From Gimesia aquarii (GTDB lineage: Bacteria > Planctomycetota > Planctomycetia > Planctomycetales > Planctomycetaceae), in NCBI RefSeq assembly GCF_007748175.1, contig NZ_CP037422.1, positions 2,315,231 through 2,379,230 on the forward strand: a stretch of 64,000 nucleotides of DNA, in the 5' to 3' direction. Position numbers and translations under genes: made by a program. The first letter of the stretch is position 1. Every line of letters begins with the position of its first letter. This document shows, one piece after another, positions 12,240 to 39,359 of the stretch. The notes beneath the pieces are model-generated. The model saw only the letters and a list, made by a program, of their open reading frames with translations. It made no database searches and had not been told where the DNA came from.

Positions 12240-12553
12240 AATCTAAATACCTCGTTTATTTAAATATTGATTGGATTGACTATTGTGGAGGTAGGTGCAC
12301 GGAATCTGCATTCTTAAATAATCCGTACTGTAGGTGGGTTATAAGTTGGGTATGATCTGTATGCTCTACAAACCACCTGCACTCTGTGAGATATTCTCTA
12401 CCTTCAGGATGACAGAATAAAGACCCAAAATCAAGCATTTATGAAATAGGATTACTGCAATTTCCCGGATCTTTGAAGGAACTAAAGACTATATAAGCTG
12501 GTCTTTATGTTTGAATTAGCCCATTTTCAATGAATCATGCACGTGTTGTAATA
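12240..12553. other. Spacer between lpxK and the cupredoxin-like gene
   Basis: This 314-base region lies after lpxK and before the cupredoxin-like gene, both on the minus strand. It holds an imperfect inverted repeat (GTAGGTGG at 12330-12337 with CCACCTGC at 12373-12380, one G-U pair) but no T-run. The promoter of the cupredoxin-like gene should lie here, but I cannot place it convincingly. Confidence 0.35.
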
Positions 12554-13612
12554 TCAACAGGAGGACACTTGATTTGCAAGATTCTGCAGGATCTCTTGAA
12601 AGGCTTCGCGACCTACTGTGATTTCGACTCCTATTTCGACAGCCCAGACTGGTACTCCAGCCAACTTGTGTTCACTGATTTTTACAAGGTCTTTGCATGT
12701 CGTCAGGATCAGATCTGCTGAAGCAGCCGTAGCGTGAGTTCCGATTGTATTTAGCTCTGCTTGGGAATAGTGGTGATGATCGGGGAATACCTTCATTCGG
12801 GCAACCTGAAAACCAGCGCGTTTCAAAGTCTGCTTAAAGCCCTCAGGGTTTCCGATTGCACAGAATGAGACTACTGTTTTGCTCGCTACAGATTCCAGTA
12901 ATTGTGTTTCTCCATGCGCATTCACTAAATACTGCGGCCGAAACTCAGCATGCACAATCAAATTGCAAGGAACCTGTTTCTCAATTTCACTTGTCAAGTT
13001 CTCCAGTTCTGCTTGCGAACATTGATCAGTACGCGTGAGAATCACTAAATCCGCCCGCTTTAACGCCGACTTTGGTTCGCGCAACAAACCACGTGGTAAT
13101 AAATAACCATGTCCCCACGGACAAAGGGAATCGATCAAAACAATATTCAGATTTCTCGCAATTTTACGGTGCTGAAATCCATCGTCTAAAATCATTAGTT
13201 GCGCGCCTGCTTCAACGGCTTTCACAGCGGAAGCAAGCCGATTCGGGTTTTGATAATGTGGAACTCCGGGACAAAGACGATCTAGTAATAATTTTTCATC
13301 GTTTACCTCGCCAGGCAAAGAACGATACCCGCGGCTCAATAGAGCCACATTGATATTCTGTTTTTGAAACCATTGAGTCAGATACGCAACTAACGGCGTC
13401 TTACCTGTACCTCCCGTTGTAAGATTCCCTAAACTGATCACGGGAACGGCCACGTCCTTTACTGAACGCCAATGTCTATCGAACATCCAATTTCGAATCA
13501 AAACGGTAATGTAGTAAGGTAAACTTAAAAGCCAGAGGCAGGGTTTGAGAATTTGGGCTCTCAAGTCCGTTTTTTGGCCTGAGATGATTCTCAAATATTC
13601 CACTTCGTTCAC
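12554..13612 (-). CDS. lpxK: Tetraacyldisaccharide 4'-kinase (lipid A synthesis)
   Basis: Inner-membrane kinase that phosphorylates the 4' position of the tetraacyldisaccharide 1-phosphate precursor to give lipid IVA. The protein is 352 residues, typical for LpxK. It has an N-terminal membrane-associated helix (about 25-43) and a P-loop GNLTTGGTGKTP (62-73, Lys71). The family motifs LSRGY, LDDGFQHRKI and the C-terminal FPDHHHYS are present. The start codon is GTG. No lipid A gene is adjacent; lpxB lies at 58 kb. Together they indicate a Gram-negative-type outer membrane. Confidence 0.95.
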   Translation of the reverse strand: MNEVEYLRIISGQKTDLRAQILKPCLWLLSLPYYITVLIRNWMFDRHWRSVKDVAVPVISLGNLTTGGTGKTPLVAYLTQWFQKQNINVALLSRGYRSLPGEVNDEKLLLDRLCPGVPHYQNPNRLASAVKAVEAGAQLMILDDGFQHRKIARNLNIVLIDSLCPWGHGYLLPRGLLREPKSALKRADLVILTRTDQCSQAELENLTSEIEKQVPCNLIVHAEFRPQYLVNAHGETQLLESVASKTVVSFCAIGNPEGFKQTLKRAGFQVARMKVFPDHHHYSQAELNTIGTHATAASADLILTTCKDLVKISEHKLAGVPVWAVEIGVEITVGREAFQEILQNLANQVSSC

Positions 13613-34515: not shown

Positions 34516-34572
34516 TTGACAGCAACCCAACCTCTGATAGAATAGAGAAAAATGTAGCCATGGCTACATTTT
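34516..34572 (+). promoter_or_regulatory. Promoter with perfect 24-bp palindromic operator
   Basis: A -35 box TTGACA (34516-34521) and a -10 box TAGAAT (34538-34543) are 16 bases apart. A perfect palindrome, AAAATGTAGCCA and its complement, follows at 34549-34572 and covers the predicted transcription start. Its halves resemble both the MntR pattern (AAACATAGC) and the outer part of Zur boxes (AAATGT). It directly precedes the metal-importer operon and is most simply a metal-responsive repressor site. Confidence 0.75.
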
Positions 34573-35707: not shown

Positions 35708-36523
35708 ATGAATATTAGAGAGAGTTCCACTACGACTACAAAACCAGAACTCCCGCTCGAAGAAACTCCGCTCTCCGTCTATGACTTGACAGTGGCCTAT
35801 CATCGAAAGCCCGTAATCTGGGATGTGAGTTTTGAAATTCCGCCGGGCAAATTAGTCGGGATAGTCGGTCCCAACGGTGCCGGGAAAAGTACATTGATCA
35901 AAGCCATCATGGAACTCATCCCCAAAGCTTCCGGACGAGTGCAAATATTTGGTAAACCCTATCAAAAAAATCGACAACGCGTTGGGTATGTCCCGCAAAG
36001 AGAAAGCGTTGACTGGGATTTTCCCGTGGATGCCCTGGATGTCGTGACAATGGGGCTTTACAAAGAGATCGGCTGGTGTCTTCCCGTTCGTAAAAAGTAC
36101 CGCGTCCTGGCGATGGATGCGTTAGAACGGGTTGGTATCGCCGATTATGCTCGGCGGCAAATCAGTCAGCTTTCTGGTGGTCAACAACAGCGGACATTTT
36201 TAGCAAGAGCCCTGGTTCAGAATGCTGATTTGTATTTGATGGACGAGCCATTCGCGGCCGTTGATGCCGCTACCGAAAAAGCGATTGTCCAGATCCTGCA
36301 GGAAATGAAAGAGGCAGGAAAAACGGCACTGGTCATTCACCATGATCTGCAAACCGTACCCGAGTATTTTGACTATGTGATCTTACTCAATATGAGAGTC
36401 ATCGATCACGGTTTAACCGCCGACGTGTTCACCCCAGAGAATCTTCAAAAGACCTATGGCGGACGCTTGACGTTATTGGAAGAAGCGACAGAAACCATGC
36501 GACGCCGGGAGCAGTCTTTATGA
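35708..36523 (+). CDS. Metal ABC importer, ATPase (TroB/MntB-like)
   Basis: ABC ATPase of 271 residues powering the importer. Walker A is GPNGAGKST, the signature is QLSGGQQQRTFLARAL, and Walker B is LYLMDEPFAAVD with switch His in VIHHD. The family string VPQRESVDWDFPV is typical of Mn/Zn/Fe importers. The last four bases (ATGA) overlap the start of the first permease gene, so translation is probably coupled. A stretch of about 20 Thr/Pro/Glu-rich residues precedes the ATPase domain. Confidence 0.95.
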   Translation: MNIRESSTTTTKPELPLEETPLSVYDLTVAYHRKPVIWDVSFEIPPGKLVGIVGPNGAGKSTLIKAIMELIPKASGRVQIFGKPYQKNRQRVGYVPQRESVDWDFPVDALDVVTMGLYKEIGWCLPVRKKYRVLAMDALERVGIADYARRQISQLSGGQQQRTFLARALVQNADLYLMDEPFAAVDAATEKAIVQILQEMKEAGKTALVIHHDLQTVPEYFDYVILLNMRVIDHGLTADVFTPENLQKTYGGRLTLLEEATETMRRREQSL

Positions 36524-38031
36524 GGCCGTTCTTTCTGGTGTTTCTACTTGCCAGTTTTGTTCCGCAATCGTTAGTCATTGCGGAAAATAATGCGAGAGAA
36601 ATTCAGTCACAACAGTCCATCACGAACCGTAGCATCACAATGCCCACATGGTCGGATTGGAAACGCGTTTTATTTTTACAGGATTATAACACAAGGATCG
36701 TCATCCTGGGCACTACACTCTTGGGAATGTCAGCCGGTATGGTTGGGAGCTTTGCCTTATTACGCAAACGAGCACTGATGGGAGACGCATTAAGTCACGC
36801 CACTCTTCCCGGTATTGCGATTGCCTTTATTGTCGCTACGACATTGGGTCTGGATGGAAAATCACTGCCAGTTTTACTCGTGGGAGCCGCTTTAAGTGGC
36901 TTAATGGGAATCGCCACCATTCTCCTCATCCGAAACCTGACACGTTTAAAAGAAGATGCCGCATTAGGAATTGTGTTGAGCGTATTTTTTGGCGCTGGAA
37001 TCGCGCTCCTGGGAATCGTACAACAAATGGAAACCGGTCATGCTGCTGGCCTGGAATCATTCATTTATGGGAAGACCGCCTCGATGGTCGCCAGCGATGC
37101 CTGGCTTATCGGGAGTGCTGGTATGACTTGCATGCTGATTTCCATTCTGTTGTTTAAAGAATTGACACTCCTTTGTTTTGATGAAGGTTTTGCCGACTCG
37201 CGTGGCTTCCCCGTCGTTTTTCTGGACATGATGCTGATGGGGCTCGTGGTTGTGGTTACCATTATTGGACTGCAAGCGGTGGGATTGATTCTGATGATTT
37301 CTCTACTGGTCATTCCTCCCGCTGCAGCACGTTTCTGGACCGAAAAAATGGTCAACATGACAATCGTGGCCATCGTGCTCGGAGCCCTTAGTAGTATGAT
37401 CGGCTCAGCCATGAGTGCCATCTTTCCCAATCTTCCCTCGGGTGCAATGATTGTGCTGGTCTCGACGGCGATGTTCTTGTTCAGCATGGTCTTTGGTATT
37501 CCACGCGGCATCTTGATCCGTAAACTACGACGACACGAATTGAACACAAAAATCAATCGACAACACCTGCTACGTGGCATTTATGAATACCTTGAAGCGC
37601 GTGGACTTCTCAATGAAAAACAGAAATTGGAATCCATGCAGGTCCCCATTGACGCAGTCTTTCAAATGCGAAGCTGGTCTCGACCGAAACTCAAAAAAAT
37701 CATAAAACGCGCCCAACTAGAACAACTTGTCGAACTAGTTCATGAAAACCAGATGCAACTCACGGAAGCAGGGCTCAAAGAAGCAATTCGACTCGTACAC
37801 GAACATCGTTTGTGGGAACTGTATTTGATCACATATGCCGATGTTGCTCCGAGTAAAGTCGATCAGGATGCCGATGCGATCGAACATGTCCTGGAACCAG
37901 AAGTGATCTCAGAATTAGAATCGTTGCTGATTCAACAAACATCTGAAGGGGTACTTCAAAGTCCACACACGATAGATATTGATCGAAACAAAACCAATTC
38001 ACAAAATCCTCATGCTCGAAGGTTACGCTAA
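36520..38031 (+). CDS. Metal ABC permease fused to a DtxR/MntR-like module (first)
   Basis: Protein of 503 residues. An N-terminal hydrophobic segment is followed by a TroC/ZnuB-type ABC-3 permease (about 55-330) with GDALSHATLPGIA and IPPAAAR. The C-terminal 170 residues lie outside the membrane part and align by eye with DtxR/MntR regulators. They have a helical wHTH-like part ending LTEAGLKEAIRLV, then HRLWELYL (His and Glu equivalent to DtxR H79 and E83). KVDQDADAIEHVLEPE keeps the E105-H106 pair, with Asp at the position of DtxR C102 (Glu99 in MntR). This is probably a cytoplasmic metal-sensing domain on the transporter; DNA binding is uncertain. It overlaps the ATPase gene (ATGA) and the second permease gene (TAATG). 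Confidence 0.9.
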   Translation: MRPFFLVFLLASFVPQSLVIAENNAREIQSQQSITNRSITMPTWSDWKRVLFLQDYNTRIVILGTTLLGMSAGMVGSFALLRKRALMGDALSHATLPGIAIAFIVATTLGLDGKSLPVLLVGAALSGLMGIATILLIRNLTRLKEDAALGIVLSVFFGAGIALLGIVQQMETGHAAGLESFIYGKTASMVASDAWLIGSAGMTCMLISILLFKELTLLCFDEGFADSRGFPVVFLDMMLMGLVVVVTIIGLQAVGLILMISLLVIPPAAARFWTEKMVNMTIVAIVLGALSSMIGSAMSAIFPNLPSGAMIVLVSTAMFLFSMVFGIPRGILIRKLRRHELNTKINRQHLLRGIYEYLEARGLLNEKQKLESMQVPIDAVFQMRSWSRPKLKKIIKRAQLEQLVELVHENQMQLTEAGLKEAIRLVHEHRLWELYLITYADVAPSKVDQDADAIEHVLEPEVISELESLLIQQTSEGVLQSPHTIDIDRNKTNSQNPHARRLR

Positions 38032-39359
38032 TGAGTGGATTGGAACAGTGGAACTGGTCTCTTGATGGGTGGATCATCGCCGCTGGTATTTTGTGTGCTG
38101 TCTCGTCGGCACTGTTGGGAAATTTTCTCGTCCTGCGGAAAATGAGCATGCTCGGTGATGCTATTACGCATGCCATTTTGCCTGGTCTGGCAGCAGCGTT
38201 CTTTCTCAGCGATAGCCGCAGCAGTATTCCAATGTTTGCTGGGGCAGTTTTAGCAGGTATCTTAACGGCGTTATTTACAGAATGGATTCGGAGCTTTGGG
38301 AAAGTAGACGAAGGGGCCTCGATGGGTGTAGTCTTCACTTCTCTATTTGCTTTAGGTCTGGTGATGATCGTGCAAGCAGCAGATCATGTTGATCTGGATC
38401 CGGGGTGTGTTCTATATGGAGCGATCGAACTGACCCCCCTTGATACAATCCTCATTTCCGGTTGGGAAATACCGCGTGTTGTCGTGGTGCTGTCTGTTGT
38501 GTTACTGGTCAATCTTTTATTTGTGGTCCTGTTTCTAAAAGAATTGAAACTCAGCTCATTTGACCCGGCCCTGGCAACCACGACAGGTTTTAATGCCACA
38601 CTCATTCATTACACTTTGATGACACTCGTTGCCGTTACCGCAGTCGCCAGTTTTGAAACGGTTGGAAATATCCTAGTGGTGGCAATGTTTGTCGTACCGC
38701 CGGCTGCCGCTTATATGTTAACAGATCGCCTGGTACGCATGATTGTTCTCAGTGTCATTCTGGCAATCATCGCAGCAGTCCTCGGCCATATCAGCGCGAT
38801 GACAGTTCCTCGCTGGTTTGGATTTCAGAGCACATCCACAGCGGGAATGATGGCAGTCGCCGCAGGATTGCTGTTTATCATCGCAGCGTTATTTGCACCA
38901 CGGCATGGAATCATTGTCGTCTTTGTGCGAAGGCAGATCCTTGCCTGGAAAATTCTTGCTGAAGACATTATCGCTTTGATGTACCGGATCGAAGAACGTG
39001 ATCCTCAACTAAAACCTGATGCGGCTTACCTGAGAGAAATTCTTTTTTCGAGTCCGCTGCCTACCGATTGGAGTCTCCACTTCCTGGCCAGACATGGTCA
39101 AGTTATCGATTCAAATGGAACCTACGAGTTAACAGAAACTGGCCGTGATCGCGCACGACAATTAGTTCGCTCTCATCGACTATGGGAACATTACTTAGTT
39201 GAACACGCAGGTATGTCTGCTGAAAACATTCACAAACAGGCCGAACAACTGGAACACTTCACTGATCGCCAGTTGCGCGAAAAATTGAATAAAGACACAT
39301 TAGACACTGATCAAGATCCACACGGGCGCCCCATTCCACCTGAGGATGAGAGGGGTTAA
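38031..39359 (+). CDS. Metal ABC permease fused to a DtxR/MntR-like module (second)
   Basis: Protein of 442 residues: an ABC-3 permease (about 10-290; GDAITHAILPGLA, VPPAAAYML) followed by a cytoplasmic DtxR/MntR-like tail. The tail has LTETGRDRARQLVRSHRLWEHYL and IHKQAEQLEHFTDRQL. In DtxR numbering it keeps H79, E83, H98, E105 and H106, with Glu in place of C102 as in MntR. It ends in DPHGRPIP, a hallmark of this regulator family. The glutamate favours Mn2+ over Fe2+ by comparison with MntR, but that is inference. Its start shares one base with the stop of the first permease gene, so the two probably form a heterodimer. Confidence 0.92.
   Translation: MSGLEQWNWSLDGWIIAAGILCAVSSALLGNFLVLRKMSMLGDAITHAILPGLAAAFFLSDSRSSIPMFAGAVLAGILTALFTEWIRSFGKVDEGASMGVVFTSLFALGLVMIVQAADHVDLDPGCVLYGAIELTPLDTILISGWEIPRVVVVLSVVLLVNLLFVVLFLKELKLSSFDPALATTTGFNATLIHYTLMTLVAVTAVASFETVGNILVVAMFVVPPAAAYMLTDRLVRMIVLSVILAIIAAVLGHISAMTVPRWFGFQSTSTAGMMAVAAGLLFIIAALFAPRHGIIVVFVRRQILAWKILAEDIIALMYRIEERDPQLKPDAAYLREILFSSPLPTDWSLHFLARHGQVIDSNGTYELTETGRDRARQLVRSHRLWEHYLVEHAGMSAENIHKQAEQLEHFTDRQLREKLNKDTLDTDQDPHGRPIPPEDERG

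Follow-up and report, generated by a model that had tools for sequence, protein, structure and literature searches.

DtxR/MntR-fold modules at the C termini of both permeases of a metal ABC importer in Gimesia aquarii

In a 64,000-nucleotide stretch of the Gimesia aquarii genome (NZ_CP037422.1; hereafter the window, positions 2,315,231–2,379,230 of a 7.2-Mb single-contig genome), one operon encodes an ATP-binding cassette (ABC) importer for metal ions, and both of its ABC-3 permeases, here called C and D, end in a module with the DtxR/MntR fold. The initial annotation had placed a DtxR/MntR-like domain on each protein, and its coordinates proved right. Fusion of a permease to a repressor is already known as a kind from YtgCR of Chlamydia; new are the fusion of both permeases, in Planctomycetota and in some loci of other phyla, the split between a kept metal domain and a drifted DNA-reading part, the presence of an MntR-type palindrome on the same operon together with a free MntR, and the occurrence of paired short tails. 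The best explanation, in which we have moderate confidence, is a manganese-type importer whose two tails would sense cytoplasmic metal and slow transport, while a free MntR would read the palindrome. The tails most likely regulate transport by metal sensing and are not repressors.

For metal ABC importers, feedback is best known from the control of transcription. If the explanation is true, the importer may gauge intracellular metal and adjust itself, and a feedback domain built into the transporter would provide a fast second layer. Double-tailed systems make it possible to decide cleanly, and in harmless bacteria, whether one fold serves as a released repressor, as in YtgR, or as a gauge that works in place.

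Fold and metal-ligand positions of the tails

Both tails matched the metal-binding and dimerization domain Fe_dep_repr_C (PF02742), with E = 5.2e-13 for residues 415–470 of permease C and E = 7.4e-21 for residues 368–436 of permease D, so that one refuting outcome named in the initial annotation, a lack of significant similarity of the tails to the DtxR family, did not occur. In a phmmer search against PDB sequences, the D tail is colinear with residues 4–133 of the metal-dependent regulator 5zr4 (E = 1.7e-12) and aligns with SloR, ScaR, DtxR, and IdeR across both the helix–turn–helix (HTH) and the metal domain (best E = 1.7e-12); the C tail gave a weaker alignment (best E = 3.3e-5). AlphaFold2 modeling yielded a predicted local distance difference test score (pLDDT) of 87.6 and a predicted template-modeling score (pTM) of 0.78 for the D tail (34 D tails), and a pLDDT of 72.3 and a pTM of 0.60 for the C tail (28 C tails), whose C-terminal third is of low confidence. 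When these models were compared with known structures using Foldseek, the D tail matched DR2539, DtxR, and IdeR (best E = 8.5e-8, template-modeling (TM) score 0.75 by query length, 129 columns) and the C tail matched DtxR more weakly (best E = 2.8e-5, TM score 0.54); among the matches listed, 50 per tail, all are regulators of the DtxR/IdeR/MntR type. The two-domain fold, in which a winged-helix region precedes the metal domain, is thus predicted for both tails, confidently for D and less so for C. Chance resemblance to the DtxR family was ruled out, as Pfam, the PDB sequence search, and the fold concur and the arrangement is conserved in relatives. Both isolated-tail models have a single predicted helix (tail residues 6–35) running from the membrane end into the first HTH helix; since this helix is continuous, no loop is predicted between membrane and module.

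In the window, H79, E83, E105, and H106 (DtxR numbering) are present in both tails, and H98 and the motif DPHGRPIP in the D tail, as the initial annotation had read them. The C tail has Asp at position 98 and SPH where the D tail has DPH. Asp occupies position 102 in C, where D has Glu, and the position of DtxR M10 and MntR D8 is His in C and Asp in D. The named positions are metal ligands in DtxR, MntR, SloR, and ScaR. These proteins and TroR share the two-domain fold and the ligand positions with the tails, but they are soluble repressors with a conserved HTH, whereas the tails are attached to the membrane and miss the HTH model (see later).

For relatives, tail alignments and a ligand table were assembled with length and motif filters (LWE, EH, HR), which left out tailless permeases, HTH-only tails, and C tails without ligands, so that counts for E83, E105, H106, and PF02742 are partly given by construction; the same applies to positions 83, 105, and 106 in the ligand table, the rows of which were prefiltered for motifs of the EH/LWE type. 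Among the 41 D tails of this table, Asp at the MntR D8 position, H79, and H98 each occur in 39, E83 in 38 (partly by construction), and the His of DPHG in 37; position 102 is Glu in 24, His in 11, and another residue in six. The initial annotation had read position 102 correctly, but with this spread residue 102 alone does not establish Mn selectivity. Among the 36 C tails, position 10 is His in 18, Asp in eight, Asn in eight, and another residue in two, H79 occurs in 33, E83 in 35 (again partly by construction), and the His of the SPH/DPH motif in 31, while position 98 is Asp in 28, His in seven, and Gln in one, and position 102 is Asp in 27, Glu in eight, and Gln in one. One idea considered was that the ligands shift with double fusion, as a sign of a paired site, given that most double systems have D98/D102 whereas six planctomycete C tails not accompanied by a full D tail have H98/E102. 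This idea was dropped, as all eight verrucomicrobial C-only tails shown have D98/D102.

Drift of the DNA-reading part and a possible mode of action

The HTH model Fe_dep_repress (PF01325) matched neither window tail (E up to 1), which gave the two-model search proposed in the initial annotation a one-sided outcome. Among relatives, the model matched none of the 34 D tails and none of the 28 C tails, compared with 30 of 30 free DtxR relatives (E up to 0.01), which were gathered by full-length similarity to L001, a free regulator of the same genome, a procedure that favors conserved HTHs. A few D tails weakly match other winged-helix models in Pfam. In the 25 genomes that have all three proteins, mean identities in the recognition helix and the dimer domain were 0.39 and 0.66 for C tails and 0.34 and 0.62 for D tails, whereas free DtxR proteins gave 0.84 and 0.80. 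Of 50 C-type and 52 D-type open reading frames (ORFs), 34 and 43, respectively, entered this comparison; the nonredundant alignments comprise 28 C and 34 D tails. The same relaxation of the HTH was seen in 33 other double-tailed loci (two outlying rows, G074 and G103, being left out of the free group; G and L numbers denote genomes and loci) and in 11 verrucomicrobial loci with a C tail only. The free proteins carry the motif SPGTVTSMLKTL, to which nothing in the tails shown corresponds. By these sequence comparisons, the tails keep the metal domain while the HTH has drifted.

In the mode of action that we propose, the two tails of the assembled importer would sit beneath the membrane beside the ATPases and pair with each other. 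At high cytoplasmic metal they would bind metal and tighten, so that the transporter would be slowed or locked (transinhibition), whereas transcription of the operon would be controlled by free MntR reading the palindrome. The winged helix would serve as a structural or coupling element. In MetNI and ModABC, ligand-bound C-terminal domains lock the importer, according to a published account (PMC10710835). The likeness lies in the proposed mode, in which a pair of C-terminal cytoplasmic domains would bind the imported substrate and lock the importer; the domains of MetNI and ModABC, however, are on the ATPase and have other folds, whereas here they are on the permeases and have the DtxR fold. 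The same source describes the use of an HTH as a sensor in the osmoregulated ABC importer OpuA (PMC10710835); the signal that OpuA senses is osmolarity. Of the ideas put forward in the initial annotation, the one with better support is that the transporter senses metal directly, with a conserved metal/dimerization domain, a relaxed HTH, and a free MntR as the likely reader of the operator. Recruitment of DNA to the membrane appears less likely, as none of 62 tails matches the HTH model compared with 30 of 30 free proteins; yet it may still occur, because an R-S/T-W signature is retained where the recognition helix begins in the C-tail family.

The closest studied relative, absent from the initial annotation, is Chlamydia trachomatis YtgCR (CT069), the permease–repressor fusion of the ytgABCD operon. 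YtgR is described as being released by cleavage, binding DNA, and repressing the operon that encodes it; it is called the sole iron-dependent regulator identified in Chlamydia, and the fusion is described for the first permease, YtgC, alone (PMC5599777, PMC7755916, PMC6504234). The importer studied here resembles YtgCR in combining a substrate-binding protein (SBP), an ATPase, and two permeases in the same gene order, in carrying a DtxR-like domain behind the first permease, and in keeping the ligand residues, which are described as conserved in Chlamydia. It differs from YtgCR as described in that permease D is fused too. Furthermore, the genome has two free regulators of the family, L001 and L004, unlike what is reported for Chlamydia, the tails miss the HTH model, and a conserved candidate operator is present.

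One or both tails could, from the membrane or after release by proteolysis, repress their own operon or other genes in a metal-dependent way. We consider this rather unlikely. The shared gene order and the cleavage of the DtxR-like domain of the first permease in Chlamydia speak for such a role, as do the winged-helix fold still predicted in both tails, the retention of R59 and W61 at the C-tail recognition helix, and genome G041, in which a C tail with full ligands occurs and no free regulator was found. On the other hand, the HTH model matches none of the 62 tails, the HTH diverges at about twice the rate of the metal domain, which is not the case in free regulators, no loop is predicted where the module joins the membrane part, and a free regulator occurs in 30 of 31 double-tailed genomes, whereas YtgR is called the only iron-dependent regulator identified in Chlamydia. 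A YtgR-like role may apply, above all to the C tail.

Several observations weigh against metal sensing by tails that no longer read DNA. The HTH of a repressor with a single target can drift fast too. R59 is invariant, and W61 is kept in at least 90%, at the recognition helix of the 28 aligned C tails, and the recognition helices are basic (+3.0 in C tails, +2.2 in D tails, and +1.2 in free proteins), so that some nucleic-acid binding is possible. The closest studied relative is, as described, a released repressor. With respect to the operator, a single related palindrome (L059) was picked up by the palindrome finder among 25 loci outside the genus, and the genome's own mntR gene, L004, has no upstream box in the 300 bp searched. 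Finally, some families have C tails without ligands or D tails without the metal domain, which entails that sensing by two tails is not universal.

Operon, candidate operator, and free regulators

The operon is laid out in Table 1. The start of permease C overlaps the stop of the ATPase gene, the start of permease D overlaps the stop of permease C, and the two permeases are the only ABC-3 matches in the whole genome. With a ZnuA-type SBP, an ABC ATPase, and ABC-3 permeases in one operon, the system belongs to the Mn/Zn/Fe importers of the ABC-3/ZnuA family. The SBP scored below every NCBIfam cutoff, so the metal cannot be named from this protein; from the MntR-type box we infer an importer of the manganese type, possibly Mn/Fe. 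In-frame ATG, GTG, and TTG codons near both tail starts were listed with their 20 preceding bases as candidate internal starts.

Table 1. Features of the importer operon (window coordinates)
Feature	Position	Strand	Basis
Sigma-70-like promoter TTGACA-16-TAGAAT (predicted)	34516..34543	+	Consensus scan, 11/12 matches, best of 7 sites
Candidate MntR-type operator, perfect 24-bp palindrome AAAATGTAGCCATGGCTACATTTT	34549..34572	.	Begins 5 nt past the -10 element
ZnuA-family metal-binding lipoprotein-like SBP, 331 aa	34611..35606	+	PF01297 6.5e-76
ABC ATPase, 271 aa	35708..36523	+	PF00005 1.5e-31
Permease C, 503 aa: ABC-3 (about 36688-37494) and DtxR-type tail	36520..38031	+	PF00950 1.8e-59, PF02742 5.2e-13
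C tail, winged-helix part (tail residues 21-88), without PF01325 match	37555..37758	+	AlphaFold2, Foldseek
C tail, metal-binding/dimerization domain (H79, E83, D98, D102, E105, H106, DtxR numbering)	37762..37929	+	PF02742, ligand table
Permease D, 442 aa: ABC-3 (about 38076-38894) and DtxR-type tail	38031..39359	+	PF00950 8.2e-45, PF02742 7.4e-21
D tail, winged-helix part (tail residues 22-78), without PF01325 match	38958..39128	+	AlphaFold2, Foldseek
D tail, metal-binding/dimerization domain (H79, E83, H98, E102, E105, H106, DPHG)	39132..39338	+	PF02742, ligand table

The promoter scan found seven promoter-like sites compared with a shuffle mean of 7.2, a number not above the shuffles. The box AAATGTAGCC-NN-GGCTACATTT is found close to the SBP start both in the window and in all 16 congeners, 17 of 17 members of the genus; in L050 one end base differs, and in L042 and L052 the ORF as called begins upstream of the box. 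Among the loci outside the genus, L093 has a box with one mismatch. A search of the own genome for the 18-mer with up to three mismatches found two places, and the reversed control found one. About 90–170 bp 5′ of an MntR-type gene, the box (up to one mismatch) recurs in G027, G028, G018, and G033, so that free mntR genes are preceded by it in several other genera. More generally, TGTAGC-N4-GCTACA with up to one mismatch occurs within 300 bp upstream of seven of 15 MntR-type ORFs, five of which are divergent from an importer SBP gene (L179, L180, L059, L093, and L233); two others have a box with two mismatches and six have none. The chance of such a match is about 0.0007 per upstream region by an arithmetic estimate. 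In most genomes the number of boxes is not above that of the reversed-pattern control, and the operator argument therefore rests on position. The palindrome resembles the Escherichia coli MntR box. It was also listed by a terminator scan, as a stem with T's, but an operator is favored, because the palindrome adjoins the promoter and comparable boxes lie upstream of mntR genes. These boxes make free MntR the likely protein to read the candidate operator.

Of the two free regulators of the genome, L001 has HTH, metal, and FeoA domains, and L004 has HTH and metal domains. A free DtxR/MntR gene was found in 56 of the 59 nearest genomes, the exceptions being G015 (74% complete), G041, and G045. In G041 (L081), the ligand set of the C tail is complete, and the genome yielded no free regulator of the DtxR/MntR type; among these relatives, a YtgR-like repressor role would be most plausible there.

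The record with L233, titled Alphaproteobacteria bacterium, combines an importer with a weak C-tail match and a divergent MntR-type gene that has an exact TGTAGC-N4-GCTACA box upstream. The second place with an MntR-type box in the G. aquarii genome (L099:12417-12459; G000:C1:1960417-1960459) has two boxes 27 bp apart, directly 5′ of a DUF1559 protein (12504-13589) with matches to PF07596 (1.9e-57) and to the pilin-type methylation motif PF07963 (6e-7). Similar paired boxes occur in several congeners, and the DUF1559 protein is possibly a cell-surface protein under Mn control.

Distribution and history of the tails

Most of the titled records closest to permease D come from Planctomycetota. 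In the 59 nearest genomes, permease C has a match in 55, although in G046 the match is solely to a frame the size of a free regulator. By the filters used, 31 of these genomes have both tails, three have a C tail alone, and 12 have a D tail alone; some of the single-tail genomes result from broken contigs or from C tails without ligands. C tails of the latter type occur in G018, G039, G044, G048, and G052. In G038, G043, G047, G051, and G056, permease C is tailless and permease D retains the winged-helix part alone, and in G054 both permeases are tailless. Such cases would fit tails that are decaying remnants of a former repressor fusion, without present function; we regard this as very improbable, as identity in the dimer domain is about 0.89 within the genus in both tails, most ligand positions are kept across distant families, and tails occur in several phyla.

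A phylum-wide PF02742 search was positive in 49 of 88 genomes. Twenty regions were picked by hand from these matches, and in nine of them a permease pair has tail matches on both members (weak in G131 and G089). In two others, D carries an HTH remnant beside a full C tail. The remainder comprise three regions with a C tail alone, four with one fused permease, and two without a permease.

We also inspected 80 titled loci. Ranked by likeness to permease D, they are the best 80 of 586 confirmed candidates, and counts among them are therefore not frequencies. Record titles supplied the phylum labels, and metagenome bins make up most of the records. Two full tails are present in 33 of the 80 (26 Planctomycetota, two Verrucomicrobiota, two Latescibacterota, one Omnitrophota, and two unassigned), 15 of which have a free regulator in the fetched flanks. 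Another 13 loci have a C tail alone (11 Verrucomicrobiota; L233 weak), which is the YtgCR arrangement. In eight loci (L239, L242, L244, L245, L251, L252, L254, and L255; two Bacteroidota, three Chloroflexota, and three Tissierella-type Firmicutes), both permeases of metal ABC importers carry short tails of about 95 residues, and a free regulator adjoins in three. The paired short tails scored 25–52 bits against the tail profile, and a Pfam scan of seven short tails gave weak winged-helix matches or none, which makes kinship with the full tails probable but not proven. The short tails resemble winged helices that lack a metal domain.

These short tails, together with the HTH-only D tails of five genomes, indicate that the winged-helix part can exist alone. 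They would suit a mainly structural role, in which the tails stabilize the permease–ATPase assembly and the metal sites serve structure rather than sensing; importers with two tailless permeases exist as well (G054). We hold such a role to be distinctly unlikely, since conservation of the tails is concentrated in the metal domain rather than in the winged helix, and the ligand positions are the most conserved ones. With metal sensing as the preferred explanation, a winged helix acting as a structural or coupling element would also explain the paired short tails. The fullest form of this explanation is tentative: the DtxR/MntR fold may have been turned, in both permeases, into a membrane-anchored heterodimeric metal gauge that has ceased to read DNA and shuts the importer directly, with the promoter left to free MntR and the short tails as the coupling element without the gauge.

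By a review's account, a 2012 paper reportedly found permease–repressor fusions in 11 phyla. No description of double fusions or of paired short tails turned up in the literature searched, and the 2012 survey may list double cases.

A tree of 116 rows, from which (as from the ligand table) eleven congeners were left out as near-copies, was computed with a bootstrap that had not settled. The C tails are set apart by one branch (96/90), a weakly supported group takes in 35 of 41 D tails (16/87), and 33 of 34 free regulators group with MntR (99/79). The D tails of G017, G024, and G141 are intermediate, and those of G040, G049, and G057 fall with single fused permeases (L170–L173). This grouping speaks for one old C-tail lineage, which is well supported, and for a likely single old D-tail lineage.

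In high-GC loci, some D permeases sit within long frames (777, 892, and 1125 residues) that were considered as further fusions and dropped; by eye, their N-terminal parts resemble out-of-frame GC-rich translation. The single fused permeases of L170–L173 (G097, G098, G112, and G128) have a DtxR-type tail followed by a further C-terminal extension, and a distinct small frame of the DtxR/MntR type accompanies the permease at three of the four loci.

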